Source: Alishewanella aestuarii B11 (lineage in GTDB: Bacteria > Pseudomonadota > Gammaproteobacteria > Enterobacterales > Alteromonadaceae). Taken from it: a stretch of 64,000 bases of DNA. The DNA lies in contig NZ_ALAB01000010.1 of NCBI RefSeq assembly GCF_000280055.1, positions 1-64,000 on the forward strand, read 5' to 3'. A program made the translations under genes and the position numbers. How positions within the stretch are numbered: position 1 is the first letter of the stretch; each line of letters starts with the position of its first letter. Below the pieces are notes generated by a model, which worked only from the letters and a program-made list of their open reading frames with translations, was not told the origin of the DNA and ran no database searches. Positions 1 to 59,254 of this stretch are shown here, piece by piece.

Positions 1-409
1 TTGTAGACAAGATGAGCCTGAAATTACTGCTGAACTTCAGGCCTACGGGGTGTAAGAGTGCTAACAAGGCAATCAAAAAGAAATTTGCTGCGGTGCTGCC
101 CACGCGGTTTATCGCAACGTTAACGACCGCTTTTCGCTCATTCTCGCCAGTAGATCTCGGCTGCCTGGCGGCTAAGTGCCATTTTCGGTCGTTGGTGTTT
201 GGTAGTTTGGATGGCAGCTTTTTAGGTAAAGCGGGCTTTGGGTGGTAAAGCAATTCGGATCCGCTTCGGACAATTTTGGGGTATGTAAAGCTGGTATAAA
301 AGGCAGAATTAGCTAAGTGAAATGCGGGATTATGGTTGGCTTGATAACTTGAGATTACTTTTTTTATCTGTATAAATAATATGTAGACACTATCAAGGAA
401 ATACATCCA
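1..409. other. Non-coding stretch at left edge
   Basis: I see no credible gene here. A 78-codon open frame at 12-248 has no ribosome binding site and runs through the dispersed repeat at 134-180. An 8-bp inverted repeat (AACGACCG at 122-129, CGGTCGTT at 186-193) brackets that repeat. The stretch looks like intergenic island debris. Confidence 0.5.
134..180 (+). repeat. 47-bp dispersed repeat, copy 1
   Basis: This block matches 2251-2297 at 41 of 47 positions, in the same orientation and without gaps. The two copies bracket the two-gene segment 410-2188. The family of the repeat is not recognised. Confidence 0.7.
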
Positions 410-1006
410 ATGCGAAAGTCATGGCTAGAAATGCAAACAGATGAAGAAGTATGGAATAAAGCGCATCAGTTTGCTACAGAAAGTCGCAATGCCATTCATA
501 ATGGTATTGGAGAGTTCTGGGCTGACACCATTAAAAAGTATCACGATGACCCAGACAAGCGCCTTACAATAGCTCTCGATAACCTACCCTTACCGGGCGC
601 TTTTCGCGAGGCAAAGATTGCTCTCAGAGCCACGATACGTAGTAAACGGAAGTCAAAGCAAGACTACGCCGACGAACTAGAACTAATTTATCGGTTAGCC
701 GTAATTGAATCATTTAGTATCCCTTACAGTAAACGTTTAAAAATGCCCGGTTATAATGTCATTGAGCATACACCGGGAGGAAAATTAAATTCTCTCCCGT
801 TTAACTACCAGAACACTGGATATAACAAACTAGATCTCACTAAAACAGACATCAAGTGGATTGTAGAGCAATGGGGTGAACCCAAGCGACACTCAACACT
901 TCACAAGGATTATCATGACCTTTGGGTGGAGCAGGAAGATAAATTCTCTTCTAACTTTGATCGAAAGCTAAAAGAGCTTTCAGTGTTGGCAGGGTTTGCC
1001 AAATAG
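410..1006 (+). CDS. Hypothetical protein, 198 aa
   Basis: I do not recognise a family for this soluble, charged protein. It has no signal peptide or membrane segment. The N-terminal part is helix-like and acidic; the middle (about residues 85-105) is basic with a run of Arg/Lys/Ser; the C-terminal part is rich in Lys, His, Trp and Asp. The start is ATG at 410 with an AAGGAAA ribosome binding site 9 bases upstream. It lies 54 bases before the DUF4238 gene on the same strand, so the two are probably co-transcribed. Both sit between two direct repeats in A+T-rich island DNA, which suggests recent acquisition. An accessory or defence role is possible, but nothing in the sequence proves it. Confidence 0.7.
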   Translation: MRKSWLEMQTDEEVWNKAHQFATESRNAIHNGIGEFWADTIKKYHDDPDKRLTIALDNLPLPGAFREAKIALRATIRSKRKSKQDYADELELIYRLAVIESFSIPYSKRLKMPGYNVIEHTPGGKLNSLPFNYQNTGYNKLDLTKTDIKWIVEQWGEPKRHSTLHKDYHDLWVEQEDKFSSNFDRKLKELSVLAGFAK

Positions 1007-1060
1007 CTTTTTAAAAAGAGTACACCTTCTTAGAAGCATTGCCTTTAATGGATAAAAAGT

Positions 1061-2188
1061 ATGGCAAAAAAACGTGATCAGCACATCGTGCCGAGGTGCT
1101 ACCTAAAACACTTCGTAGATAGCTCTTCCTCTGTAAATAACAAAAAATATGAAGCTGGTGTATACGTAAACACTTCTGCTCTTGATAGAGCTTGGAAAAT
1201 GAAAGGACTAAGAAACAATATCTTTACTAAAACTAGATTTTATAACTTAAAATCTGATGATCCTGATAAGCCCTTAGTCGAAGAACATCTTGCCAAAATA
1301 GAAAGCTTTTACAGTAAGGGGATTACAAAACTACTTAATGGAGAGTTTTCAAATGAGATTCTTTCGATATTCACACTTTTTGTAGTTACTCAATTTTTTA
1401 GAACCGAGAAAGTCCTTAAAACCCACCAAAAATCATGGGATAGAGTGGCATTGTATGCAGACATGTTTGAAGGAGGGAATAGCAACAGAAATATTTATGA
1501 TGAAATATCAAAACAGCAGATTTTGTATTTAGCTACACCTGAGGCTCTAAACCCAATTCATAGAAAATCTGGGATAATTATTAACTGCACTCAAATCCCC
1601 TTTCTTACATCTGACAAGCCCGTAATAAAGGAGTTTTTTAATCAAGAAGACATATCGAGAATTTTTCACCCATTACAGCAAAAAAAATATATAGATGATC
1701 ATTTTGAATCACTTTTCTACTTTATGCCTTTAACTCCGTGGCTAGCATATGTATCTCATAGTAGTTTTGAAGGTGAAACGAAAGGATACGAATGTTCACA
1801 CGAAAGCGTAATTTCGCAGTTAAATAACATGATGCTATTAAATGCCAGTGAACATATATACTCCTCTATGGATAATCCCGTCACTAGCCTACCAGTCAAA
1901 ATTAAACAGGAAGGTAATCTTAACTTTCTTGCCAAGATTTTTACCGGTTCGAGAAGGCTAATTTTAACGGTGAAAAGTTATCATCGCGATAACTCACTAC
2001 TAACGTTGACTAGCGAAGATGTATGTGTGAGCGATGAACTTTTTGAAAAGCAGAAAGTGCATTCCGTTGAAGTGTTTGACACAAATTTTAGCAATATTAT
2101 TGGGGTTGTCCGTAGCAGAGACTGCACTGTCAAAGCCATCGATAAATTAAGTGGAAAGATTGTTTTTGAAACTAAACATGGCTTATAG
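1061..2188 (+). CDS. DUF4238 domain-containing protein
   Basis: The N-terminus carries the QHIVPRCYLKHF signature (residues 7-18) typical of DUF4238 proteins, followed by a 375-residue soluble chain, a normal length for that family. DUF4238 has no settled biochemical function that I can name. The family is scattered among bacteria and often sits in variable regions. There is no signal peptide or membrane helix. Start ATG at 1061; A+T content is higher than in the core genes of this window, consistent with transfer. It follows the 198-aa gene closely and is followed at 2251 by the second copy of a 47-bp repeat. The family assignment is fairly sure; a role in defence or DNA processing would be speculation. 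Confidence 0.75.
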   Translation: MAKKRDQHIVPRCYLKHFVDSSSSVNNKKYEAGVYVNTSALDRAWKMKGLRNNIFTKTRFYNLKSDDPDKPLVEEHLAKIESFYSKGITKLLNGEFSNEILSIFTLFVVTQFFRTEKVLKTHQKSWDRVALYADMFEGGNSNRNIYDEISKQQILYLATPEALNPIHRKSGIIINCTQIPFLTSDKPVIKEFFNQEDISRIFHPLQQKKYIDDHFESLFYFMPLTPWLAYVSHSSFEGETKGYECSHESVISQLNNMMLLNASEHIYSSMDNPVTSLPVKIKQEGNLNFLAKIFTGSRRLILTVKSYHRDNSLLTLTSEDVCVSDELFEKQKVHSVEVFDTNFSNIIGVVRSRDCTVKAIDKLSGKIVFETKHGL

Positions 2189-2250
2189 CTGGGATGTCCG
2201 CTGTTTGTCTGTAGCGGACTATTCCGAGCTAACTATCAGATATCCGCAAA

Positions 2251-2297
2251 TCGCTCATTCCCGACAGTAGACCTCGGTTGCCAGGCAGCTAAGTGCC
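2251..2297 (+). repeat. 47-bp dispersed repeat, copy 2
   Basis: Second copy of the block at 134-180, 41 of 47 identical, same orientation. It starts 62 bases after the DUF4238 stop codon and closes the two-gene segment. Confidence 0.7.
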
Positions 2298-2443
2298 AAA
2301 AGCAGACGTTTGTTGTGTTCGATTTTATGTTGTATTGGTTGATTTCTCATCTGTTACACCACATATCGGTTATTTTGAACTGGTATTTATTTTCTTAGTG
2401 GCTCAAGTGAGTCTAACGTTTGAACGCAATTAAGGGCGACATT

Positions 2444-3202
2444 TTGAGCGACGAAAAGAAGCCTAGAAGCGAGATTATAACCTTTGAAACTAAAGGTACG
2501 GTGTCTAAAATAACTGTTGTTTATGACTCGGTGCATGGAGTATTTCATTTTCCAGAAGCTGAACCAAAATCCCTTTTCTTGGAAAGAAGTTACCAAAGAA
2601 ACTCAGGAAAGCCTAAAGTGTTAACCTCTATGGCCGCGCGCAGTAACAACGCATCGTTTGATCCTGATAAATTTTTGCAAAATAATTACGACTACGCGAT
2701 TAGCATTGATACTAATACCAAACAATATAAGGGACATAAGATCAGTATATGTACGTGCTATCACGTCCCCAAAAGATTGAGTGCGTATGGTAGTGATATA
2801 CCGTTCTCTCATTTGGTGAGTTATGTAATTTTATCACCAATAGATGGAGTTAACCCGGAGCAGATAGGATGGTCTTTAGTTATCGAAAATAATATTCGAC
2901 CTGCCAAGAATCCTTCTAGAATAGCCGTGATTGTAGATAGCGAGAAAGACGCGTTGCCCAACTATAATCTTCGAGAAAAGCCATATTTTGCTGAATATTA
3001 TTTGCCTGACAATACAACAATGCATTATGCCTCGGATAAAGACAGAGATTCCTTGGCAGGTCAGATGTTGAAGATGTGTCACAATGCTGCGAATCAATTA
3101 CATAACTACATGTTAGTTAATGAACTTTCAATGCCATTGTTACAAAATGCTTGTGAATACCATAAAGGCTACTTTCGAGTGAGGGTAAGTCAATATAAAT
3201 AA
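2444..3202 (+). CDS. Hypothetical protein, about 252 aa
   Basis: I do not recognise this protein. It is soluble, with no signal peptide. The open frame begins after an in-frame stop at 2414, and no ATG occurs before residue about 70. The best start is TTG at 2444, which has a TAAGGG ribosome binding site at 2431-2436; the alternative TTG at 2420 has none. Two segments, about residues 85-105 (AISIDTNTKQYKGHKI) and about 155-175 (IAVIVDSEKDALPNY), alternate hydrophobic and acidic residues in a way that could suit an RNase H-like fold. That is only an impression. It is A+T-rich like its neighbours. The gene is followed by an ISAs1 insertion. Confidence 0.6.
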   Translation: MSDEKKPRSEIITFETKGTVSKITVVYDSVHGVFHFPEAEPKSLFLERSYQRNSGKPKVLTSMAARSNNASFDPDKFLQNNYDYAISIDTNTKQYKGHKISICTCYHVPKRLSAYGSDIPFSHLVSYVILSPIDGVNPEQIGWSLVIENNIRPAKNPSRIAVIVDSEKDALPNYNLREKPYFAEYYLPDNTTMHYASDKDRDSLAGQMLKMCHNAANQLHNYMLVNELSMPLLQNACEYHKGYFRVRVSQYK

Positions 3203-3358
3203 CATCTACTAGCTCACAAAAGCGCATAGCTGAATGCTTTTAGTTGTTGAGCCTGAATTTAAACGTTGTGGTGCGAAATAATTGCAACGAGTGGTAAGGT
3301 CGGCCACAAAACTAGTCATAAATGTGGATGATCTTATACAGCTAAGGTTAAAATATAA

Positions 3359-3368
3359 TGTTTTAGCC
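3359..3368. repeat. Target-site duplication of ISAs1 element, left
   Basis: TGTTTTAGCC directly abuts the left inverted repeat and is repeated exactly at 4613-4622. A length of 10 bp fits the ISAs1 family. Confidence 0.9.
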
Positions 3369-4612
3369 CAGGGTAAGATTACGAGTGGTCATTTAATAAC
3401 CACGCTCATTCCAGCTTCAAGCACCGCATCCAGATAAGCCTCATTCATCAATGCCTGACGCTGCTTTCTTCTGATACTCATTTTTCGCTTCTCAGCGCGT
3501 AACATATTCAAACCAAAGTGTCGCATCGTGGCAAGATTAGTCGCTGCATTACCACGATATATCTGGCACGCATCCTCACCTAAACTCACATCCAGCACCC
3601 AGTGTAACTGGTTTTCGATACTCCAATGCTCGCGAACTGCGCTGGATAGCCGCTCGGCACTAAGCGCGGCTGAGCTGATAAAATAACGTTGTTCTAATAC
3701 TGCTCGCTTGTCCTTTTCCACCCGATAGGTGGTTGCCATGCCCAAGGTTGTCAGCGCAGGCCACGCAGCTTTGAGTTTTTCCGGTAATTCACTGGCATCA
3801 CATACCTGGAATTCTCGGTACTCCAAGCGCCCACGGTTCTTTTCCAGTGACTGCGCTGCAGTGTCTTTGTGCGCTTTACCCGCAAAGACTTGTTTTACTG
3901 CATCATGCAACTGCCCTTGGTTGCCTTTAACCGTCAACAGGTAGTCAGCTTCTTTATCTACTATCTGCTGCGCTATCTCTTTCTGGCATCCCATGGCATC
4001 CAAACTGACCAAGCATCCTTTAAGCTCCAGCAAGTTAAGTAGCTGAGGTATCGCCGTAATTTCGTTGCTCTTCTCGTCCGTTTTAACCTGGCCCATTACC
4101 ACGCCATTGGCACTGGCAAAAGCGCTAACCATATGAATAGAAGAGCAGCGGTCTTCGCGGTTGTAAGAGCTGCGCAACGTTTTGCCGTCAATCGCTACCA
4201 CCTGACCATCAGTAAGCTCTGTACAAGCCTGCATCCAACTGGCAAAGCAACGCTGTAAAGCTTCGCTGTCCAGCAATGACATCACCCGTGCGATAGTGTC
4301 GTGTACCGGCAAGCCCAGTTTGAAAAAACCATGTTCTTGCAACCAGTCAAAGCGGTTTTCACCGAAATCTTCAATATCTTCCCAGCCCTCACAGCCTGCG
4401 ATAACGGCACACAGCGTTAAAAATACCACGTCAAACAAGGGGTAAACGACCTTAGATGCTTGCCTTGGGTCTTCTAATTCTGAAAAGTGCTCTGCAAAAA
4501 TATCGATGTTCATAAACTGGCTCCGCGTAAAAGCCAGTATCTGATCACAACGGAAGATCGCGGTCAATCAGTTATGTTAAAGTGCGCGTTAAATGTTCGT
4601 GATCTTGCCCTG
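3369..4612 (-). mobile_element. Complete ISAs1-family insertion sequence (1,244 bp)
   Basis: The ends are a 16-bp imperfect inverted repeat: CAGGGTAAGATTACGA at 3369-3384 and TCGTGATCTTGCCCTG at 4597-4612, 14 of 16 matching. Perfect 10-bp direct repeats flank it. The single transposase gene fills nearly the whole element and is intact. Intact ends, matching duplications and a full-length gene point to a fairly recent insertion. It landed just 5 bases beyond the 3' end of the lipoprotein gene at 4628-5299, so no neighbour is broken. Confidence 0.93.
3389..4513 (-). CDS. ISAs1-family DDE transposase
   Basis: This is the transposase of the element at 3369-4612, of the H-repeat-associated/ISAs1 type. 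It catalyses cut-and-paste movement of its own element. An N-terminal helical DDE-associated region (about residues 1-95) is followed by the DDE core: Asp in VVAIDGKTLRS, Asp in VSLDAMGCQ and Glu in IENQLHWVLDVS. The usual start is the internal ATG at 4513 (MNIDIFAEHF), giving 374 residues, a normal length; the open frame extends 18 codons further upstream to 4567, but this extension is not typical. No frameshift or stop interrupts it, so it is probably functional. Confidence 0.92.
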   Translation of the reverse strand: MNIDIFAEHFSELEDPRQASKVVYPLFDVVFLTLCAVIAGCEGWEDIEDFGENRFDWLQEHGFFKLGLPVHDTIARVMSLLDSEALQRCFASWMQACTELTDGQVVAIDGKTLRSSYNREDRCSSIHMVSAFASANGVVMGQVKTDEKSNEITAIPQLLNLLELKGCLVSLDAMGCQKEIAQQIVDKEADYLLTVKGNQGQLHDAVKQVFAGKAHKDTAAQSLEKNRGRLEYREFQVCDASELPEKLKAAWPALTTLGMATTYRVEKDKRAVLEQRYFISSAALSAERLSSAVREHWSIENQLHWVLDVSLGEDACQIYRGNAATNLATMRHFGLNMLRAEKRKMSIRRKQRQALMNEAYLDAVLEAGMSVVIK

Positions 4613-4622
4613 TGTTTTAGCC
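4613..4622. repeat. Target-site duplication of ISAs1 element, right
   Basis: TGTTTTAGCC, identical to 3359-3368, abuts the right inverted repeat of the element. Confidence 0.9.
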
Positions 4623-4627
4623 CTCGA

Positions 4628-5299
4628 TCAGCGTTCACTAAAATGCTTCAAAACTTTGTAAGTGATTTCCGTATTTGTTGCACTGATTACTTCCAAACGA
4701 GCTCCAGCATAACCTATGATGTTACTTTCGTTTAGGTCATATTCGACATCGGTACTAAAAGCAGCTCTAGCCATATCATTGCTAAATTCGCGGTAGCTGA
4801 TTTTTAGTTTATTACCGACTTTTCCGCTGTATAAAAGTGTTCGCCTGAAACTATCATTTGTGAAAACGGTTTCTTTTGAGCGTGTGAAGTTTACTTTCCC
4901 GCAAACTGTTATGTCGGCAGGCCTATTAACGCAGAATTCGCCTGTATTTTTCTTAATTTGAACTGTAGCGTGAGGTTGAGGTGTGACCGCTATTAGTCCA
5001 GCATGAATAACATATCCGGCAAGTAGGTCTTGAACGAAGAACTCGGATTTTTCATCTTCGCCAATTTTAGATAGCTTTCCCTTTTTAATATCATAAGCAG
5101 AAATTTCTGCCTCTTCAGTCACTTCAATTATATCTCTTTTAACAACTCGGCCCTGATCCATTAAGGGTTCACCTAATCCTACCGACACAACAGTTTCTGG
5201 TTCTGGTATCGAGAAGCGGCTAGACTCAGGAGTGTAGTTATATTTTACAGTGCTACAAGAAGTTAAGGTTAAACAAAATAGTAGACCGATGTATTTCAT
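4628..5299 (-). CDS. Putative lipoprotein, 223 aa
   Basis: The N-terminus (MKYIGLLFCLTLTSC) is a lipoprotein signal peptide with a lipobox ending at Cys15, so the mature protein should be anchored in a membrane, probably the outer one. The rest is predicted to be mostly beta strand and contains two Cys (near residues 123 and 132, in FCVNRP and ITVCGK) that could form a disulphide. I do not recognise a family. Start ATG at 5299, with a possible AAGGAATT ribosome binding site just upstream. The gene is monocistronic between an ISAs1 element and umuC, which is on the same strand but 279 bases further upstream. Confidence 0.75.
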   Translation of the reverse strand: MKYIGLLFCLTLTSCSTVKYNYTPESSRFSIPEPETVVSVGLGEPLMDQGRVVKRDIIEVTEEAEISAYDIKKGKLSKIGEDEKSEFFVQDLLAGYVIHAGLIAVTPQPHATVQIKKNTGEFCVNRPADITVCGKVNFTRSKETVFTNDSFRRTLLYSGKVGNKLKISYREFSNDMARAAFSTDVEYDLNESNIIGYAGARLEVISATNTEITYKVLKHFSER

Positions 5300-5578
5300 C
5301 GTAATTCCTTTTAAAACATGTTGCCAATTTCGTGTATGTGGTTTTTAACCTGAATGACCCAAAATTTGGAACGAGATAGGTTAGTCTAGAAGAATTTCTG
5401 ATCAATTGCATTTTATTTACCATCTGATTGCAGCAACTGCTTACCACCAGCAGCAAATCTATGTCTCCAATGGTGGTAAAGGACTTACCAGAGAATAGTT
5501 ATCCTCAGTTCGTAGCTCTGGGCAAAATCTAGGGCTGATCCTGCTGTGTGCGTTATGTCCGCTTTTCGCTCAAAGCGG

Positions 5579-6859
5579 CTATTTAGCTTTCGGTAAATCC
5601 ACCCAACTGGTCGTGTACAGCGGTGATAGCATACCGCGTTTCATTGACCAGTCTTGCTTTATACCTTGGCTAGCAAACCAGATCTTGCCTTTGCCACTGC
5701 CGTTTAGTTTATCGATTACAGTCATCAGCGCTTTGCTTTGATAGCTTGGCGGTTCAGGTTCAAACAGGCAGCCTTGATGCACACCTTCATCATAAAAATC
5801 TGACAGCATCACTCCGGCCTTGGCGTAGCGATATCCGTCACGCCAGATCTTATCAAGTAGGTTGATTGCAAGACTGATGAAATCACGAGTGTCAGCGCTT
5901 GGCGTTACAAGCGAGGTACTTATACTATTTGAATAGTACGGGTCACGTTCTTTATCGCTAAATGGGCTGGTTCGTAGAAAAACACTCAATTGCTTGGCTA
6001 CTTGTTGCTCTTTACGCAATTTTTGGCAAGCACGACTAACATACTCACTTATGGCCTCCTGCATCTGCTGTTTGCAGGTGATCCTTTCACCGAATGAGCG
6101 AGAACTCACAATCTCTTTTTTGGTTGGTGCTACCTGTTCCAGCTCCAGGCACGACTCGCCATTGAGCTCCTGCACAATACGCGATACCACTATAGAAAAT
6201 TGCTGGCGCATAAAAGCAGGTTCTGCATCAGCTAGGTCAAGAGCAGTATTGATCCCGAGTTTGTTAAGTTTTGCCGTTAATTTGCCACCAATTCCCCATA
6301 CTTCACTAACAGGCAGCAAGCTCATTAACTTGCGTTGTCGTTCTTTATTTGTCAGATCAACAACACCGCCTGCTTTAGTCCATTTCTTAGCTGCATGATT
6401 TGCTAACTTAGCCAGTGTTTTAGTCGGTGCGATGCCAACACATACGGTAATGCCGAGCCACTTTTGGATTTTACTGCGTACTTGCTGACCAAATTGAGTT
6501 AGGTCAAGACAATGACTCACGCCCGTTAGATCAAGAAATGCTTCATCAATAGAGTAAACTTCAACAGCTGGCGCGAGTTGCTCTAGTGTTGTCATCACTC
6601 GCGCTGATAAATCAGCATACAGTGCGTAGTTAGAGGAGAAAGCCAGCAACTTACCGTTCTCTATGAGCTCACGTATCTGAAAAGCGGGGACACCCATTTT
6701 AATGCCGAGTGCTTTAGCTTCTTTTGAACGCGCTACAACACAGCCATCATTATTCGATAGCACTACAACAGCAGCATCTTTAATGTCCGGTCGGAATAGC
6801 TTCTCGCAGCTGGCGTAAAAGTTATTGCAGTCAACAAGAGCGAAAGTTTTCGTTGTCAT
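5579..6859 (-). CDS. umuC: UmuC, Y-family DNA polymerase V catalytic subunit
   Basis: This is the error-prone translesion polymerase that works with UmuD' after DNA damage. The palm begins with FALVDCNNFYASCE (catalytic Asp10) and includes VYSIDEAFLDL with the Asp-Glu pair around residue 103. A helix-hairpin-helix/little-finger region follows, and the C-terminal UmuC-specific tail is present. The length of 426 residues is close to E. coli UmuC (422). The start ATG at 6859 overlaps the umuD stop by 4 bases, so the two are translationally coupled. The operon sits inside the tRNA-linked island; mobile umuDC copies of this kind are common on plasmids and islands. Confidence 0.95.
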   Translation of the reverse strand: MTTKTFALVDCNNFYASCEKLFRPDIKDAAVVVLSNNDGCVVARSKEAKALGIKMGVPAFQIRELIENGKLLAFSSNYALYADLSARVMTTLEQLAPAVEVYSIDEAFLDLTGVSHCLDLTQFGQQVRSKIQKWLGITVCVGIAPTKTLAKLANHAAKKWTKAGGVVDLTNKERQRKLMSLLPVSEVWGIGGKLTAKLNKLGINTALDLADAEPAFMRQQFSIVVSRIVQELNGESCLELEQVAPTKKEIVSSRSFGERITCKQQMQEAISEYVSRACQKLRKEQQVAKQLSVFLRTSPFSDKERDPYYSNSISTSLVTPSADTRDFISLAINLLDKIWRDGYRYAKAGVMLSDFYDEGVHQGCLFEPEPPSYQSKALMTVIDKLNGSGKGKIWFASQGIKQDWSMKRGMLSPLYTTSWVDLPKAK

Positions 6860-7287
6860 GGCCTTCGTATTTTTCGTACCACGTTAGTCACCACACCAAA
6901 AATTTCTAACTCGTTATCTGAGGTAATCTCAATCGCTTGATACTTCGGGTTGTGTGGTAACAATCTGATAGTCGGTTTTAAGCATAATTCTTTAACTGTG
7001 AACTCATTGCTCAGTGCAGCGACGACAATATCTCCATGTTTAGCCTCAAGGGCACGATCCACTACCAGAATATCACTGTCATATATACCGGCGTTCTGCA
7101 TCGAATCGCCACTAACCTTAACGAAAAACGTAGCCGCAGGATGCCTAACACAAAGCTCGTTTAGGTCTAGCGTTTTCTCAACGTAATCTTGTGCTGGAGA
7201 AGGGAACCCAGCTGACACCCGATTGTTGAAAAGTGGCAGCAGAATAGCATTGCATAACGATGCTTGACCGAGTACTTCAACTGTCAT
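6856..7287 (-). CDS. umuD: UmuD, self-cleaving subunit of DNA polymerase V
   Basis: LexA-like peptidase S24 protein whose RecA-stimulated cleavage yields UmuD', the partner of UmuC. Counting from ATG 7287 (143 residues), the cleavage site is Ala26-Gly27 in SAGFPSP, and the Ser62 (GDSMQNAG) and Lys99 (FTVKEL) dyad is intact. I chose the start at 7287 because a GAGGTG ribosome binding site lies just upstream and because the longer frame, starting at 7302, would begin inside the LexA operator. The gene is first in the umuDC operon and is controlled by the SOS box at 7301-7320. Confidence 0.94.
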   Translation of the reverse strand: MTVEVLGQASLCNAILLPLFNNRVSAGFPSPAQDYVEKTLDLNELCVRHPAATFFVKVSGDSMQNAGIYDSDILVVDRALEAKHGDIVVAALSNEFTVKELCLKPTIRLLPHNPKYQAIEITSDNELEIFGVVTNVVRKIRRP

Positions 7288-7300
7288 ATCACACCTCGTC

Positions 7301-7320
7301 ATATGTATATATATACAGTA
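7301..7320 (-). promoter_or_regulatory. LexA (SOS) box of umuDC
   Basis: On the minus strand the sequence reads TACTGTATATATATACATAT, matching the gammaproteobacterial LexA consensus CTGT-N8-ACAG at all but one conserved position and with the preferred alternating TA core. It lies 13 bases upstream of the umuD start codon. Confidence 0.93.
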
Positions 7321-7432
7321 TATAGCCGATAAAACAAAAGCGGTAGTGTAAGTGTTATTTGGATTATCGTTTGAAAAGTAGGTTAGATTTATCTACATTT
7401 ATGTAACGTAAAATTTAAGGTGGGTTCTTAGT

Positions 7433-7666
7433 ATGGAAACGTTAGAGGTTAATGAAGCGCAATTTAGGCAGCAGCTGTGGAGATGGAAATCTGTCGGTCG
7501 AACTCTCTTCAACCTTCCGAAAATTGAAATACGAAATCACAAACTTAGAATTTCTGTTGTTAGCGTCGACAATATAGCGTGCTACACACTTAAGAAATCG
7601 TTTGATAGTTATCAGCAGTTACTGAACTGGTATGGGAGTTTGCTCGATGAATTGGAGCCGTGTTAG
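7433..7666 (+). CDS. Small hypothetical protein, 77 aa
   Basis: A short soluble protein with several Trp and Arg residues in the N-terminal half (FRQQLWRWKSVGR) and an alternating hydrophobic pattern in the middle that suggests a small alpha/beta fold. I recognise no family. ATG at 7433 has an AAGGTGGG sequence upstream as a possible ribosome binding site. It is transcribed divergently from umuD and its last 4 bases overlap the 3' end of the HAD gene on the other strand. It could be an SOS-linked accessory gene, since the divergent promoter region of about 110 bases also carries the LexA box, but that is inference. Confidence 0.5.
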   Translation: METLEVNEAQFRQQLWRWKSVGRTLFNLPKIEIRNHKLRISVVSVDNIACYTLKKSFDSYQQLLNWYGSLLDELEPC

Positions 7667-8142
7667 CTTCCAGTAGCCATTCGGTGTAACAACGCAACGA
7701 AATGGCGTTTAACACTAGCCCAGTTAGGAAATTCAGCACTCCCATAGTGAATCAGTTGCCCTTGAAAATCCTCCTGACCAAATCCTGCAGTTTTATCGTC
7801 AATCAAATAGTCGCCCCTGGAAAGACCTTTGTGAGCGCTGATAATCAGCCGGTGGCAATGTTCAAATCCAAAATGGCGCTCAACCCAGAGCCGTTTTTCG
7901 GTATAGCAGAGCGGGTTATGTACTGACGGCGCGGTTAGCAGCAACACCAAAAACTCAGGTTGCTCAAACAACCAACTAGCAGTCTCGATCGCATACTCAT
8001 AGGGTGGTAGATTCAGAAAAAATCCCTCCTGACTCTGAGGATAGAGAATATCTGGCCTCAAGCTCCTAGCCGCATCGTAACTACTTTTGTAATCGCACAG
8101 TGTATCGTCTAAATCAATGTAAATTATGTGTTTCACTTTCAA
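7663..8142 (-). CDS. HAD-superfamily 5'-nucleotidase-like phosphatase
   Basis: The protein begins with HAD motif I (YIDLDDTLCDY, Asp10 nucleophile and Asp12 acid/base), has a Thr in LLLLTAPS as motif II, a Lys in SAHKGLSRGD as motif III candidate and DYLIDDK as motif IV. At 159 residues it matches the short 5'(3')-deoxyribonucleotidase (NT5C) type, cytoplasmic enzymes that dephosphorylate nucleoside monophosphates. The family call is firm; the substrate is inference. Start ATG at 8142. It stands alone on the minus strand and overlaps the small gene 7433-7666 tail to tail by 4 bases. In an island such an enzyme could affect nucleotide pools, but that is speculation. Confidence 0.8.
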   Translation of the reverse strand: MKVKHIIYIDLDDTLCDYKSSYDAARSLRPDILYPQSQEGFFLNLPPYEYAIETASWLFEQPEFLVLLLTAPSVHNPLCYTEKRLWVERHFGFEHCHRLIISAHKGLSRGDYLIDDKTAGFGQEDFQGQLIHYGSAEFPNWASVKRHFVALLHRMATGS

Positions 8143-8253
8143 TTTGCCCGAATTTCAGTTCACCTCAATCAGTTTAGCTAATTTAATCGACGTGAACCAC
8201 CGGAGGTAAGGTACTGTTATGGTGTGTATACGATGCATTTCACACTAATTCAA

Positions 8254-8272
8254 AGTTGGGCTATGCTCAACT
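8254..8272. promoter_or_regulatory. Palindrome upstream of AbrB-like gene, possible operator
   Basis: AGTTGGGCTATGCTCAACT is an inverted repeat with 7 of 8 arm pairs matching. It ends 26 bases before the ATG of the AbrB-like gene. DNA-binding proteins of this kind usually repress their own operon, so this could be the operator. Confidence 0.35.
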
Positions 8273-8298
8273 CTGCCGGGGCGTATTCGGGAGGACGC

Positions 8299-8523
8299 AT
8301 GAGTTATCGGGTAAAAATTGGTCGTCATAATGAGGTAGAACTGCCAGATACCCTGTGCCAGGAATTAGGGGTTAAAATCGGTGATATTATGGTTTTCGAG
8401 GCATCACCTGATTCTCAGGCACTCACAATAACCAAACACAATGATCAAACGCTTACCGATGATCAAATTGCGGCTGCAAGAAATCTCTCGCGGATAATCC
8501 CGTACCCTCTAGAGCACGAATAA
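8299..8523 (+). CDS. AbrB/MazE-like DNA-binding protein (possible antitoxin)
   Basis: A 74-residue protein with the swapped-hairpin AbrB/MazE/SpoVT pattern: YRVKIGRHNEVELPDTLCQELGVKIGDIMVFE in pattern, that is, a beta strand, a strand ending in ELP, then LG-x(3)-GD and a further strand (residues 3-34). Such proteins bind operator DNA and often serve as antitoxins. I placed the start at ATG 8299, preceded by GGGAGGAC; the open frame reaches back to 8224 without a ribosome binding site. The gene is followed after one base by a 53-codon gene, so the two are almost certainly co-transcribed. No toxin of a known family is visible beside it. Confidence 0.75.
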   Translation: MSYRVKIGRHNEVELPDTLCQELGVKIGDIMVFEASPDSQALTITKHNDQTLTDDQIAAARNLSRIIPYPLEHE

Positions 8524-8524
8524 C

Positions 8525-8686
8525 ATGAGCAGACCACCAATAGCAAATGATCAAGAACTTGAAGAAGTGCTAAGTGCCATCGAATTGTTGTTAGAAGCCG
8601 AGCCTGGCACACCAGAAGATGATGAATTACAGGCTTTAAGCATATTAGTCGATGAATACGAGGATATTCATTACCCAATGGGCTAA
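8525..8686 (+). CDS. 53-aa protein resembling the N-terminal part of HigA antitoxins
   Basis: The short frame ATG 8525 to TAA 8684-8686 encodes a very acidic peptide. Its middle (EAEPGTPEDDELQALSILV) and its end (DEYEDIHYPMG) match the conserved segment that precedes the helix-turn-helix in HigA-type antitoxins. The DNA-binding half is missing: the frame stops right after HYPMG, and I found no helix-turn-helix in any frame downstream to 8806. It is therefore either a stand-alone domain protein co-translated with the AbrB-like gene or a decayed remnant. The spacing of one base to the preceding stop argues for an intact two-gene unit. The function is unknown. Confidence 0.55.
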   Translation: MSRPPIANDQELEEVLSAIELLLEAEPGTPEDDELQALSILVDEYEDIHYPMG

Positions 8687-8805
8687 TCATTAAAAGTCAC
8701 AAAGGCATCGCCTGGTTGTTCAAGTTACCCATATTTCGATCGTCCTCATCTTATAGTTGTATCATAGAGATAGGCGTTTCTAAAGTTTTAGGGAAGGTCT
8801 AGGGC

Positions 8806-9492
8806 ATGAACCGATATACTAAGGATTTGAGAAAATTTTTATGGAAAGAGTTCCATAAAAATCCTAAATATTTTAACGATTTAGCTAAAAAATATAAAGA
8901 CTATACATTAGGTAAGTGGCCTAAAAAGTTTGTTGATTGCGTTTTCCAATATGACTTCCACCATTTTGTAGATATTTTTGATATTTACATACTAGCTTAT
9001 ATTACAACGCTGTTAAGGCATCCAAATCGTAAGCTAGCGGTTTTTCAATTGCCCGTAGGGGCAGAGCCGTATCCAGACAAAGAAATAGAGTTAAACCAAC
9101 AGCAGCTAAACATGTTAAAAGAACCCTTTAGCGGAGAATTTTGGGGGGGAAAGCAAGGTGAAGATGGCTATGTAAAGTGGTCTAGACCTATTCACTGTTT
9201 AGCACGCGAAAACGAGGGTCAGCTTGCATGGGTGGTTATTGAGGCTAATAAAGCACCACTTGAAGTTGGATATAACGATAGCGGTAAATTTTATCGGTAT
9301 TTGATCGAAAATGGTATCTGCGCTCGTTGGCCTTATGGGCAGTCTTACATAACAGTATTTGTTAACCTTGAATTAATTAAATTTTACTCTACTAATTCAA
9401 ACAACTTTAAAGAAGTATTAGAGAGATCTGGTGAATCTATCGAAGTTTGTCTTGAGTTAGAACGAAACCCATTAGAAAACTGGAAAATCTAG
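8806..9492 (+). CDS. Hypothetical protein, 228 aa
   Basis: An A+T-rich gene with no family I recognise. The N-terminal third is basic and rich in Lys, Phe and Tyr. The middle contains Trp/Gly-rich stretches (EFWGGKQGEDGYVKWSRP) and a strand-like segment WVVIEANKAP. There is no signal peptide; the hydrophobic run FDIYILAYITTLL (about residues 58-70) is too short and interrupted to be a confident membrane helix. Start ATG at 8806, with AGGGAAGG a little upstream. It is the last gene of the island before the repeat and attachment-site region, a position where cargo genes are often found. Confidence 0.65.
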   Translation: MNRYTKDLRKFLWKEFHKNPKYFNDLAKKYKDYTLGKWPKKFVDCVFQYDFHHFVDIFDIYILAYITTLLRHPNRKLAVFQLPVGAEPYPDKEIELNQQQLNMLKEPFSGEFWGGKQGEDGYVKWSRPIHCLARENEGQLAWVVIEANKAPLEVGYNDSGKFYRYLIENGICARWPYGQSYITVFVNLELIKFYSTNSNNFKEVLERSGESIEVCLELERNPLENWKI

Positions 9493-9512
9493 TACTTGAA
9501 ATATTTGTAAGC

Positions 9513-9638
9513 TAGTGGGCTGTAAAATGTAAAAATAACTAAATCCATAATGCTGCGCATTTCTTTCCTCGATTGTGAAACGATAGCAGCCTATACATAG
9601 GCATTGCCTACTAAACAGGGCATTTTAGTAGCCCACTA
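9513..9638. repeat. MITE-like element with 17/18-bp terminal inverted repeats
   Basis: TAGTGGGCTGTAAAATG at 9513-9529 is mirrored by CATTTTAGTAGCCCACTA at 9621-9638, with one extra base and two changes. The 126-bp unit codes for nothing. This is the form of a miniature inverted-repeat element, or of a large RNA hairpin after the 228-aa gene. Confidence 0.55.
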
Positions 9639-9703
9639 AAAATTAGTTTAATCTTGGGCAGTTTTTCACAAACACCCTAAATGCATAACTATGCTCAAAA
9701 AAA

Positions 9704-9828
9704 CGATGCACTGAATATGCACCATATAGCTAGAATACATTATTTTATAAAAATTTACGGTGCACAGTAGGTGCATCGAAAAAAGTTGTTGCACAACTTA
9801 AAGAGAATAAGTAAAGTGCGCACCACTT
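9704..9828. other. Palindrome-rich end of the island
   Basis: Two 20-bp sites in opposite orientation, at 9704-9723 and 9759-9778, share CGATGCAC-N6-TGCACC. Further palindromes follow at 9783-9799 (AAGTTGT-TGC-ACAACTT) and 9814-9828 (AAGTG-N5-CACTT). They lie just inside the attachment-site remnant, where integrase arm or excisionase sites would be expected. The gap between the 228-aa gene and tRNA-His (9493-9942) holds these sites, the MITE-like element and the tRNA fragment, and no gene. Confidence 0.4.
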
Positions 9829-9892
9829 AAGGGATGAGAGCGGACTGGCTAGTCACTCACTCACTCACTTAGTATAAATCAGCCTGATATAA

Positions 9893-9918
9893 AGGTTCGA
9901 ATCCTATCGGGCGCGCCA
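9893..9918 (+). other. tRNA-Arg 3' fragment: island attachment site (attR)
   Basis: The block AGGTTCGAATCCTATCGGGC followed by GCGCCA is the T arm, acceptor 3' strand, discriminator and CCA of a tRNA-Arg. The anticodon and D arms are missing: the bases upstream do not fold into them. It lies 24 bases before tRNA-His, the place where tRNA-Arg precedes tRNA-His in the conserved Arg-His-Leu-Pro arrangement of gammaproteobacteria. This is what an integrase leaves at the far end of an island inserted into the 3' end of a tRNA gene. Confidence 0.75.
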
Positions 9919-9942: not shown

Positions 9943-10019
9943 GGTGGTTGTAGCTCAGTTGGTAGAGCCCCGGATTGTGATTCCGGTTGTCGTGGGTTCG
10001 AGCCCCATCATCCACCCCA
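9943..10019 (+). tRNA. tRNA-His (GTG anticodon)
   Basis: It has the extra 5' G(-1) paired opposite C73, a D arm GCTC/GAGC, anticodon GTG in a CCGGA/TCCGG stem, T arm GTGGG-TTCGAGC-CCCAT and an encoded CCA. The acceptor stem is GTGGTTG against CATCCAC, which leaves a U5-U68 mismatch. It is followed after 13 bases by tRNA-Pro. Confidence 0.95.
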
Positions 10020-10032
10020 TCCCCCTTTAAGT

Positions 10033-10109
10033 CGGTGATTGGCGCAGCTTGGTAGCGCACTTGGTTTGGGTCCAAGGGGTCGCAGGTTCAAATCCTGCAT
10101 CACCGACCA
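10033..10109 (+). tRNA. tRNA-Pro (TGG anticodon)
   Basis: A complete 77-base cloverleaf with an encoded CCA: acceptor CGGTGAT/ATCACCG, D arm GCGC/GCGC, anticodon loop with TGG, and T arm GCAGG-TTCAAAT-CCTGC. It has the usual C at position 1. It is probably co-transcribed with tRNA-His. No tRNA-Leu lies between the two. Confidence 0.95.
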
Positions 10110-10219
10110 CTTTATCTTCCCACAGCATTACTAAATCTACAGTTAGCTCAGAGCATTATTGAATCGTCGCATTCGTTTTATTGCCGTTTATAAAATTTAA
10201 ATTCCGTATTTCCAGTGTC

Positions 10220-10470
10220 CGGATGCACCGAGTTAGGTATGCGTAACGATGAGCAATAGTAGCGTTGAGATTGGGGCAGCGCCCTTAGCAGGGTAGTAAT
10301 TTTCTCCACCGGCTTCAAGGATCACATCCCTGTGCCCTTTCAGCCTCCGCAGCATCCCTGCTGCTGTTACGAAAATTCTACCGCAGCTAAGGGCTTAAAG
10401 AGCATCGGTTAGGCATCACGACAATATACTATTGGCGGCACGATCGTGAACGAGGCGGTAAATGCAGAGT
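10220..10470 (+). repeat. Intergenic repeat of about 250 bp, copy A
   Basis: Closely related to 10571-10679 plus 12033-12160 (copy B). It can fold into a long imperfect hairpin: GCCCTTAGCAGGGTAG and following bases (10281-10304) pair with 10371-10394, ending in CTAAGGGC. No coding potential. The interval 10110-10679 contains only this copy, a second palindrome and the left part of copy B. Confidence 0.75.
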
Positions 10471-10554
10471 ACACTTTTCTGGGGACGTCTTTCGCATGGA
10501 TGCGAAAGGGGAGCCCCCAGGGATGGGTTCACGGCGTGCCCCAGGAAAGTTGTA
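10469..10554. repeat. Palindromic intergenic repeat between copies A and B
   Basis: Outer arms GTACACTTTTCTGGGG (10469-10484) and CCCCAGGAAAGTTGTAC (10539-10555) pair with one bulge and one mismatch. Inside lies a perfect hairpin CTTTCGCAT/ATGCGAAAG (10489-10508). It resembles the REP-like palindromic units common between gammaproteobacterial genes. Confidence 0.6.
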
Positions 10555-10570
10555 CGGCGCGTTTAGCCGA

Positions 10571-10679
10571 CGGATGCACCGAGATAGAACCTGCGTAACG
10601 ATGAGCACCAGTAGCGTTGAGATTGGGGCAGCGCACTTAGCTGGGTAGCAATTTTCTCCACCGGCTTCAAGGATCACAT
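10571..10679 (+). repeat. Intergenic repeat copy B, left part
   Basis: Matches the start of copy A (CGGATGCACCGAG onward) up to GGATCACAT, where the IS110-family element interrupts it. The repeat resumes at 12033. Confidence 0.75.
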
Positions 10680-10694
10680 ATATGTACACCTCAA

Positions 10695-10930: not shown

Positions 10931-11944
10931 TTAGCCTGGTTGATACTCTTGCTGGTGATAAAGTACGGACCAGATAATTCGAGCGAGCTTGTTGGCTATA
11001 GCAACAACTGCTTTGTGCTTACCGCGACGTTCAGTTACTCTTCTCGCCCAGCTTGATAGCCTATCGTTATTGTTGTCGGCATTACGCAGAACGCTCCAGG
11101 CCCCTTGAATCAGCATATTGCGTAAATAGGCATTACCACGTTTGGTTATGCCTGCCAATTTTTGCTTCCCTCCGCTGGAGTGCTCTTTAGGGACTAATCC
11201 AAGATTAGCCGAAAAGTGCCGACCATTTTTGTAAGCTTTACCATCACCCGCAAATGCGAGAGCTGTCGTAGCCGTCTTTTCACCTACACCACGAATGGTC
11301 ATCAATCTCTTGGCATTGGGGTTGGTTTGGGCCTGAGTTTTAATATGTTTATCTAACCGGTCAATAACCGCATCTAGTGATGCCCATTCTTGTTGGATAT
11401 CACAGATAAGTGCTCGTGCCGCGCTAGTAAGGCCATTTTCTGCATCTTCCAATAAATCAGACAACGCATTTTTTAACGACGTTCTGTCGGTTGCGAAGAT
11501 AATGCCATATTCATTTAACAAGCCGCGCAGTTGATTTATCAAAGCCGTGCGAGCATCCACCCGACGTTTCCGGAGTTTATGCACTATCATCATATCGGTT
11601 TGCTCAAGACTACGGGGTCTGACGAAGTGCATATTGGGGCGCCTTGCCGCTTCAGTAATCGCGAAAGCATCATTACGGTCATTTTTGTTGCCTTTGACAA
11701 AAGGCTTTACATGAATAGGCGGGATAAGTAACACCTTAAAGCCAAGCGCTTCTAAAGTGCGCCCCCAGTAATTTGAACCAGAGCAGGCTTCCATTGCAAA
11801 GGTTGCATCTGGGTAATCAGCTAATAAGGCCAGCAAATCCTTACGTTTAATCGTACGATTAAAAACGGCTTTACCTGCCTGATTGACGCCACAGAGCTGA
11901 AAAATACTTTTTGCTAAATCGATTCCAATTAGTGTAACTTTCAT
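10931..11944 (-). CDS. IS110-family recombinase (DEDD transposase)
   Basis: An intact 337-residue protein. The N-terminal RuvC-like DEDD domain shows Asp9 in IGIDLAKS, Glu in FAMEACSGSNYWG and the acidic pair in KGNKNDRNDAFAI. A helical middle region follows, then the C-terminal Transposase_20 domain with the catalytic-serine segment NLGLVPKEHSSGGK. I start it at ATG 11944, preceded by GAGGTGT; the frame could begin at GTG 11953, but that would overlap the ribosome binding site. It moves its element without hairpins or classical terminal repeats. No sign of decay. Confidence 0.92.
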   Translation of the reverse strand: MKVTLIGIDLAKSIFQLCGVNQAGKAVFNRTIKRKDLLALLADYPDATFAMEACSGSNYWGRTLEALGFKVLLIPPIHVKPFVKGNKNDRNDAFAITEAARRPNMHFVRPRSLEQTDMMIVHKLRKRRVDARTALINQLRGLLNEYGIIFATDRTSLKNALSDLLEDAENGLTSAARALICDIQQEWASLDAVIDRLDKHIKTQAQTNPNAKRLMTIRGVGEKTATTALAFAGDGKAYKNGRHFSANLGLVPKEHSSGGKQKLAGITKRGNAYLRNMLIQGAWSVLRNADNNNDRLSSWARRVTERRGKHKAVVAIANKLARIIWSVLYHQQEYQPG

Positions 11945-12032
11945 GTTGGACACCTCATGTAAACTTATTGACGGTTAACACATCAATAATGGCGCATTGT
12001 GACGCCGATTTCACTTGAGGTGTCCATCTCAT

Positions 12033-58144: not shown

Positions 58145-59254
58145 ATGCAACTGAATACCCCCGCTGAAATTATTGAAGATATCCGTCAGGGCAAGATGGT
58201 GATCCTGATGGATGATGAAGATCGTGAGAATGAAGGCGATCTGGTGATGGCGGCCGAATATGTCACGCCGGAAGCCATTAACTTTATGGCCAAATATGGC
58301 CGCGGTCTGATTTGTTTAACCCTGACCAAAAAGCGCTGCAAGCAGCTTAATCTGGCGTTAATGGTTGATGCCAACAAATCGCCGTTTTCGACCAATTTTA
58401 CCGTATCGATTGAAGCCGCCGAAGGCGTTACCACCGGTATTTCGGCGGCAGACCGCGCCCGCACTGTGAAAGCGGCGGTAGCTCGTGATGCCAGCCCGGC
58501 AGATATCGTGCAGCCCGGCCATATTTTTCCGTTAATGGCGCAGGACGGCGGTGTGCTGGTGCGGGCTGGGCATACCGAAGCCGGTTGTGACTTAGCGCGT
58601 CTGGCTGGCCTGGAACCGGCCGCTGTGATTGTCGAGATCCTGAATGATGACGGTACCATGGCGCGGCGTCCGGATCTGGAAGTCTTTGCCAAGCAACATA
58701 ATATTAAGATTGGCACCATTGCCGATCTGATTGAATACCGTAACCTGAATGAAACCACTATCGAAAAAGTGGCAACCTGCCAGCTGCCAACGGAGATGGG
58801 CGAGTTTGAACTGGTGACCTTTAAAGATACTATCGATAATCAGCTGCATTTTGCGCTGGTCAAAGGCGAGATTACGCCAGAACAACCAACCTTGGTGCGG
58901 GTACATTTACATAATACCTTCAGTGATTTATTACTGAGCAACCGTGGCGCTAATCTGAGTTTCCCATTGCACACTGCCATGCAGCGTATTGCTGACGAGG
59001 GCGGGGTGCTCGTGCTACTGGGTAAGCACGAGTCGACTGACGAGCTGGTGCAAATGGTGCAGAATTTCCAGGCCGAAGATAAAGGTGAAAAACCCCGCTC
59101 CGCGCCCTGGAAAGGTACCTCCCGTAATGTTGGCGTTGGCTCGCAAATTCTGGCCAGCCTTGGTGTGCGGAAAATGCGGCTGTTAAGCCAACCGAAAAAG
59201 TATCATGCGCTGTCGGGTTTTGGCCTGGAAGTGGTGGATTACGTTTCTGAATAA
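58145..59254 (+). CDS. ribB: RibBX: DHBP synthase with degenerate GTP cyclohydrolase II domain
   Basis: Residues 1-200 are a complete 3,4-dihydroxy-2-butanone 4-phosphate synthase, with the metal/substrate motif [10 protein letters not shown] (23-32) and HTEAGCDL (143-150), which makes the four-carbon unit of riboflavin. Residues about 208-369 have the GTP cyclohydrolase II fold but not its zinc site: where RibA has a Cys-rich stretch, this protein reads [20 protein letters not shown] with no Cys. It thus fits the RibBX type known from Shewanella and relatives. The organism must then have a real ribA elsewhere. Confidence 0.92.

Follow-up and report, generated by a model that had tools for sequence, protein, structure and literature searches.

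The split tRNA gene and the two junctions of the island

The window, which is the whole stretch of 64,000 nucleotides analysed from Alishewanella aestuarii B11, begins at base 1 of contig C10 (216,465 bp) in a draft genome of 43 contigs and 3.59 Mb, and the features of interest are collected in Table 1. Positions 9893-9918 read AGGTTCGAATCCTATCGGGCGCGCCA, corresponding to the 3' strand of a T arm, the 3' strand of an acceptor stem and CCA, and no 5' part of a tRNA lies ahead of them. The GC content is 34-45% to the left of this fragment and about 50% to its right. Among the examined congeners, the tRNA cluster is ordered tRNA-Pro, tRNA-Arg(TCT), tRNA-His, tRNA-Pro, and for nearly all of these congeners position 9893 is where the BLAST match of the locus starts; the fragment is therefore not a product of chance. 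In two congeners (G004 and G016), identity is 100% from 9893 onward and an intact, intron-free tRNA-Arg lies upstream, which represents the empty site. A 25-mer of the fragment has no further exact copy anywhere in the genome. Directly 3' of the downstream tRNA-Pro, a block that is repeated and starts GGATGCACCGAG was noticed, as was an ORF for an IS110-like transposase (10210-10680, 10931-11953), and farther on an antisense RNA of Vibrio, V_AS9, gave an Rfam match outside Vibrio (59.7 bits, 58242-58345, minus strand).

Because the window begins at the first base of C10, the left end of the island was sought on other contigs. On contig C8, after a tRNA-Pro, a host tRNA-Arg (C8:40817-40873) runs from GCGCCCGTAGC to GGGTCATAGGTTC, up to the T loop, and then passes into TTATTTCAGGTTAG. 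This tRNA ends at ATAGGTTC and has the six bases AGGTTC in common with the right end. The empty site reads GGGTCATAGGTTCGAATCC, versus GGGTCATAGGTTC followed by TTATTTC at the left junction and CTGATATAA followed by AGGTTCGAATCC at the right, which places the break of argU in the T arm, between GGTTC and GAATCC. Since both junctions share AGGTTC relative to the empty site, the host tRNA was split and not rebuilt, and its being cut at GGTTC means that integration destroyed the host tRNA-Arg. When the C8 and C10 flanks were joined in silico, tRNA-Arg(TCT) was restored.

Table 1. Features of the island's right-hand part and of the interrupted tRNA cluster (positions in the window)
Feature	Position	Strand	Basis or remark
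Island, right-hand part (cargo)	1..9892		left part on C8 (40874-47178) and, very probably, C9 (4302 bp)
Uncharacterised protein, 198 aa, cargo	410..1006	+	no NCBIfam, Pfam, PADLOC or PHROGs match
DUF4238 protein, 375 aa, 10 AGA codons, cargo	1061..2188	+	Pfam PF14022, 85.8 bits
Uncharacterised protein, cargo	2420..3202	+	profile searches
ISAs1-family transposase, inserted in island	3389..4567	-	97.7% to Klebsiella plasmid copy
umuC	5579..6859	-	NF002955, 638 bits
umuD-like, directly upstream of umuC	6856..7302	-	matching plasmid homologues annotated umuD
Uncharacterised protein, cargo, adjoins right end	8806..9492	+	profile searches, no family match
TCAC tandem repeat, just inside right end, recurrent in these elements	9853..9869	+	pattern-located right ends, 6/10 genomes
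Right terminal inverted repeat, reads TTATATCAGGCTGATTTATACT (left end TTATTTCAGGTTAGATTTTAGT)	9871..9892	-	comparison of element ends
AGGTTC, 6 bp common to both island junctions (crossover/overlap)	9893..9898	+	empty site vs both junctions
argU (tRNA-Arg(UCU)), split host gene, 3' part, 26 nt	9893..9918	+	onset of congener identity; joined to C8 flank gives intact tRNA
tRNA-His, host, downstream in interrupted cluster	9944..10019	+	tRNA call
tRNA-Pro, host, downstream in interrupted cluster	10033..10109	+	tRNA call

A preliminary description made from the window had recognised a lone 26-base tRNA-Arg 3' end before tRNA-His and tRNA-Pro as the attachment site at the right end of an integrated island, with accessory DNA (an IS element, umuDC and uncharacterised genes) to its left, an integrase beyond that and an empty site to be looked for in relatives. 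The composition of the DNA, the alignment to congeners, the core common to both junctions, the empty sites and a tyrosine recombinase gene at the island's far (left) end, on C8, all bear this out. The intact host tRNA-Arg with the same 26 bases that had been expected at the left is absent, and in its place stands the host gene cut at GGTTC. A conventional island, which would have entered at the 3' end of the tRNA, rebuilt it and left a 26-nt repeat distally, would fit the fragment at the right end and the tyrosine recombinase at the left end, but the copy at the left junction stops at GGTTC and continues into TTATTTCAGG, and a tRNA combining the host exons with the GAATCCTATCGGGCGCGCCA end was not found elsewhere in the genome; this explanation is considered extremely unlikely. 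Likewise, the draft state of the genome and the position of the island across contig ends could suggest that unrelated pieces were joined by misassembly or contamination. The two flanks are exact matches to congeners, however, and the same architecture lies on very large contigs in three other genomes (G391, G1000 and G143), so that an artefact can practically be dismissed.

The tRNA-Arg(CCG) on contig C31 and a fragment on C29 were considered as partners of the 26-mer and rejected, as they represent another tRNA with a GCACCCG acceptor, probably of another island. The C29 fragment is a tRNA-Arg(CCG) 3' part of about 50 bases at C29:41811, beside HTH/HipA-like genes, and the intact gene at C31:5680-5756 has the same downstream flank; the pair is probably another island-like scar in this genome.

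The island appears to be spread over the three contigs C8, C9 and C10. A 481-aa tyrosine recombinase, a 1105-aa protein, a 202-aa protein and, at the contig end, a VPA1267-family protein are encoded on C8 adjoining the left-end tRNA described below. C9 (4302 bp) starts with a RecD2-like helicase that is 69% identical to the product of the gene following VPA1267 in Vibrio renipiscarius, and thus C9 very probably continues C8; if it sits between C8 and C10, the island measures at least about 20.5 kb. The ends of the elements compared carry inverted repeats starting TTATNT, with the TCAC repeat at the right end. A motif like GGTGCAATG or AGTGCATC, seen by eye, recurs near both element ends and upstream of the recombinase gene, and could be a set of candidate arm-type sites for the recombinase or sites for a regulator. 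The ISAs1 copy in the cargo, whose 97.7% match is to a Klebsiella pneumoniae plasmid, is about 91.5% identical to copies in Rheinheimera phages, and these identities point to wide recent transfer of the insertion sequence.

The 481-aa recombinase matches PF00589 (54.9 bits) and its catalytic residues R, K, HxxRH, H and Y are invariant in eight homologues. No family was assigned to the 1105-aa and 202-aa proteins. In the family of the 1105-aa protein, R587, K626, H769xxR772 and Y803 are invariant, and it may be a second tyrosine recombinase. Neither the profile comparison with the 481-aa recombinase nor the comparison with PDB sequences gave a real match, so the putative assignment derives only from these residues; the AlphaFold model of a 1114-aa homologue had a mean pLDDT of 37 and was discarded. 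The recombinases would catalyse both integration and excision. No relative of the 1105-aa protein was found on plasmids or, except in A. aestuarii B11 itself, among 369 gammaproteobacterial genomes of a class-wide sample.

The substitute tRNA-Arg(UCU) and its intron

About 90 bp inside the left end of the island, on the strand of the host gene, lies a second complete tRNA-Arg(TCT) gene (C8:40965-41272), here called the substitute. Its anticodon loop holds an insert of 231 nt that was identified by Rfam as a group I intron (RF00028, Intron_gpI; 76.0 bits, E 6.5e-19, gathering score 50, model positions 1-253 of 253). Removal of the insert in silico after U36 leaves a perfect 77-nt tRNA-Arg(TCT). 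The 5' exon ends in U and the intron in G, as group I introns do. Across the six intron-bearing tRNAs available for comparison, which are few sequences, 28 of 98 predicted pairs show a compensatory change, as would be expected of a functional RNA, and the substitute is predicted to self-splice to the 77-nt tRNA. The search for a tRNA-Arg to the left, which had been proposed in the preliminary description, thus did arrive at a tRNA-Arg(UCU), though a different gene from the one foreseen, borne by the island and interrupted by an intron.

No uninterrupted TCT tRNA was found among the Rfam tRNA matches of the genome, a draft assembly rated 100% complete, in which the other arginine anticodons are ACG (two genes), CCG and CCT; despite that rating, a second UCU tRNA may have been lost from the assembly. 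AGA codons, which are decoded by tRNA-Arg(UCU) in such bacteria, are in use, for example in the DUF4238 gene of the island. A terminator-like hairpin lies 3' of the substitute, and the stretch from the split host gene to the substitute yielded no such hairpin, so that read-through from the promoter of the host tRNAs would be possible; a search for a promoter consensus ahead of the substitute found none.

Group I introns were also observed in tRNA-Arg(UCU) genes of three genomes (G153, G357 and G055) without this recombinase module, and in the two of them that were spliced in silico (G153 and G357) the intron sits two bases earlier, after U34; for these introns another carrier may exist. In G160, a group I intron similar to the UCU introns interrupts a tRNA-Arg(CCU) on a short contig, tRNA-Arg(CCU) being a classic known location of such introns. 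Part of the intron core matches Escherichia coli plasmids at 76.7% identity, for example at NZ_CP023816.1:123627-123723, where no feature is annotated, and this match is perhaps an unannotated group I intron. Of the 655 places matched by this part of the intron core, 576 are on plasmids, and the matches fall in 625 of 5426 genomes.

Elements with the same plan in other genomes

A search of 394 genomes from the order, together with 247 Vibrionaceae, revealed nine further elements with a homologous recombinase module and a left-end tRNA, which makes ten with that of A. aestuarii B11; their hosts are Vibrionaceae, Aeromonas, Alteromonas and others, and their sizes range from about 15 to 48 kb. 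A split UCU gene is accompanied by a UCU substitute with a group I intron in G187 (Vibrio renipiscarius), G391, G1000, G809 and the first insertion of G143. A split CCU gene is accompanied by an intron-free CCU substitute in G154 (Alteromonas sp. C1M14), G320 (Aeromonas bivalvium) and G223 (Aeromonas fluvialis), and the T arm of these three substitutes is recoded to GTGGGATCGTGCCCCAC. In G409 (Vibrio sp. 10N.286.49.B1), a split CAU tRNA, from its sequence likely tRNA-Ile2, is accompanied by a CAU substitute with a group I intron (98.9 bits). An intron is thus present in the substitutes of seven of the ten elements, and the anticodon of the substitute is that of the split gene in every element. 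The split site is in the T arm and the break is always GTTC followed by TTAT in the elements compared, the strictly shared core being only 4 bp (GTTC) in G187 and G154. Among the cargo of the Vibrio elements are genes for defence systems of the type I restriction-modification, Qat and PD-Lambda-1 kinds. Because their left end is without a tRNA, the more distant relatives (G921, G970, G959, G984, G897, G882, Pseudomonas loci and L135) were not counted in the class.

A pattern for the right end was built from four elements and gave one match each in two more genomes, at the other end of the element; the reversed pattern, used as a control, gave one match in all, in G409. The right ends of the elements in G809, G320, G223 and G409 were not found. 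For all six elements with both ends located, joining of the flanks restored a tRNA with the expected anticodon.

The substitute exons are identical in G391, G1000 and G809, and the host tRNAs differ from the substitute at 2, 5 and 12 positions, respectively; by this comparison, the substitute would belong to the element and not to the host. The same observation bears on the reading that the intron-bearing tRNA was a long-standing gene of the host next to the insertion and that the island broke a redundant neighbour. The clustering of tRNA genes at the locus and the differently placed introns of tRNA-Arg(UCU) genes without the recombinase (G153, G357 and G055) would suit such a history. It is nevertheless very unlikely, given the single intron-free tRNA-Arg at the locus in congeners, the place of the substitute immediately within the left end of ten elements from different families, its identity in three species with differing host tRNAs, and an anticodon that is always that of the split gene. 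The evidence argues instead, with high confidence, that the island was inserted into the T arm of argU by a tyrosine recombinase, split the gene and carried with it the intron-bearing substitute tRNA-Arg(UCU).

Two related genomes bear on the history of such elements in one lineage. In G143, the intron-bearing substitute of the first element is itself split, at GGTTC followed by TTATATTAG, by a second element, which carries an intron-free UCU substitute and holds the missing 3' half at its right end. In G240, which is congeneric with G143, the same intron-bearing tRNA is whole, with tRNA-His directly after it and the older split half in front, and G240 therefore represents the empty site of the second element of G143. 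From this arrangement of sequences, it also appears to be a relic left by deletion of the first element, of which the intron-bearing tRNA was kept, and such relics would be a route to the fixation of intron-bearing tRNAs in hosts.

The suggestion that the intron shields the substitute from targeting is weakened by the splitting of an intron-bearing substitute in G143. The intron may be a passenger or a mark that separates the substitute from the target, and G143 speaks against absolute protection. That the intron is only a hitch-hiker, tRNA substitution sufficing by itself, is compatible with the insertion and replacement of argU proposed above, and we lean slightly towards it: the substitutes of the three CCU-type elements and of the second G143 element are intron-free, and the intron-bearing substitute of G143 was still a target. 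Against it stand the presence of the intron in all six UCU-type first insertions and in the CAU-type element, and the lack of the GGTTC target in the intron-free CCU substitutes (T arm GGGATCG), which hints that marking may matter.

Comparison with known systems and proposed mechanism

Gamma-mobile-trio (GMT) elements (GmtY/GmtZ/GmtX) reportedly occur in Vibrionaceae and have a three-gene module at one end. The elements studied here resemble that layout in their one-end module of proteins of about 480, 1100 and 200 aa, and also in the type I restriction-modification, Qat and PD-Lambda-1 cargo carried by relatives, but differ in the tRNA target and the substitute tRNA. The GmtY profile scored 28.7 bits on the recombinase, far below its cut-off of 340; for GmtZ and GmtX, the 1105-aa protein gave no match at E 1 and the 202-aa protein none at 0.001, GmtZ being matched weakly (16 bits) only by a distant relative. 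The element was therefore not filed under the gamma-mobile-trio. With tRNA islands, ICEs and prophages, including those at argU, it shares the tRNA target, the T-arm crossover, the tyrosine recombinase and the distal fragment. Conventional members of these groups rebuild the tRNA from attP, whereas this element leaves the host gene split and carries a whole substitute gene.

Bacterial tRNA genes with group I introns include those for tRNA-Arg(CCU), tRNA-Ile(CAU), tRNA-fMet and tRNA-Leu(UAA). Such introns have been described for several tRNAs of bacteria (PMC3984707), and tRNA-Ile2 introns of this kind were reported in Acidovorax and Burkholderia (PMC8450103). Like those, the intron of the substitute is small, belongs to group I and lies in the anticodon loop, but the known introns sit in resident genes and this one in a tRNA-Arg(UCU) on a mobile island. 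Tycheposons (PMC10872708) have a tRNA gene at one end, a tyrosine recombinase and cargo, as the present element does, but the recombinase module is another one and no group I intron is described in the texts consulted on them. In IStrons, a group I intron is joined to a transposon (PMC4227781). In both cases a group I intron is paired with mobile DNA, but here the intron, which at 231 nt is too short for a transposase gene, lies in a tRNA that makes good the loss caused by the element itself. In the open-access literature searched, which leaves out most subscription papers, we came across no description of a tRNA-splitting element that brings an intron-bearing replacement.

The following course of events is proposed. 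An attP built as IR-(A)GGTTC-IR would recombine with the T arm of the tRNA, by which argU is split and a complete substitute, in the orientation of argU, is supplied a short way in from the left end. The substitute would be transcribed from the promoter of the tRNA operon, and the intron would splice itself out to give the 77-nt tRNA. AGA decoding would then depend on the island, and for this reason any loss other than precise excision would be lethal, the tRNA being a hostage that stabilises the island. The elements would spread intron-bearing tRNA genes and at times leave the tRNA alone behind.

It is plausible that related islands are a vehicle for the spreading of tRNA introns. More tentatively, and as a view that we hold to be possible though somewhat short of probable, these islands may form a distinct class of elements that take a single-copy tRNA hostage: they would always destroy the target and always supply a substitute of the same anticodon marked as different, either through a self-splicing intron or through recoding of the T arm, and their deletion would fix the intron-bearing tRNA, which could explain in part why group I introns are so patchily distributed among the tRNA-Arg and tRNA-Ile2 genes of bacteria. 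For the host, an island that broke the sole AGA-reading gene and supplied its sole replacement would be hard to lose, and tRNA annotation pipelines may report such genomes as being without tRNA-Arg(UCU). To our knowledge, the small group I introns of tRNA genes have had no obvious carrier; here, introns of this scattered kind lie on islands with their own recombinases and would cross between bacterial families together with the tRNA.
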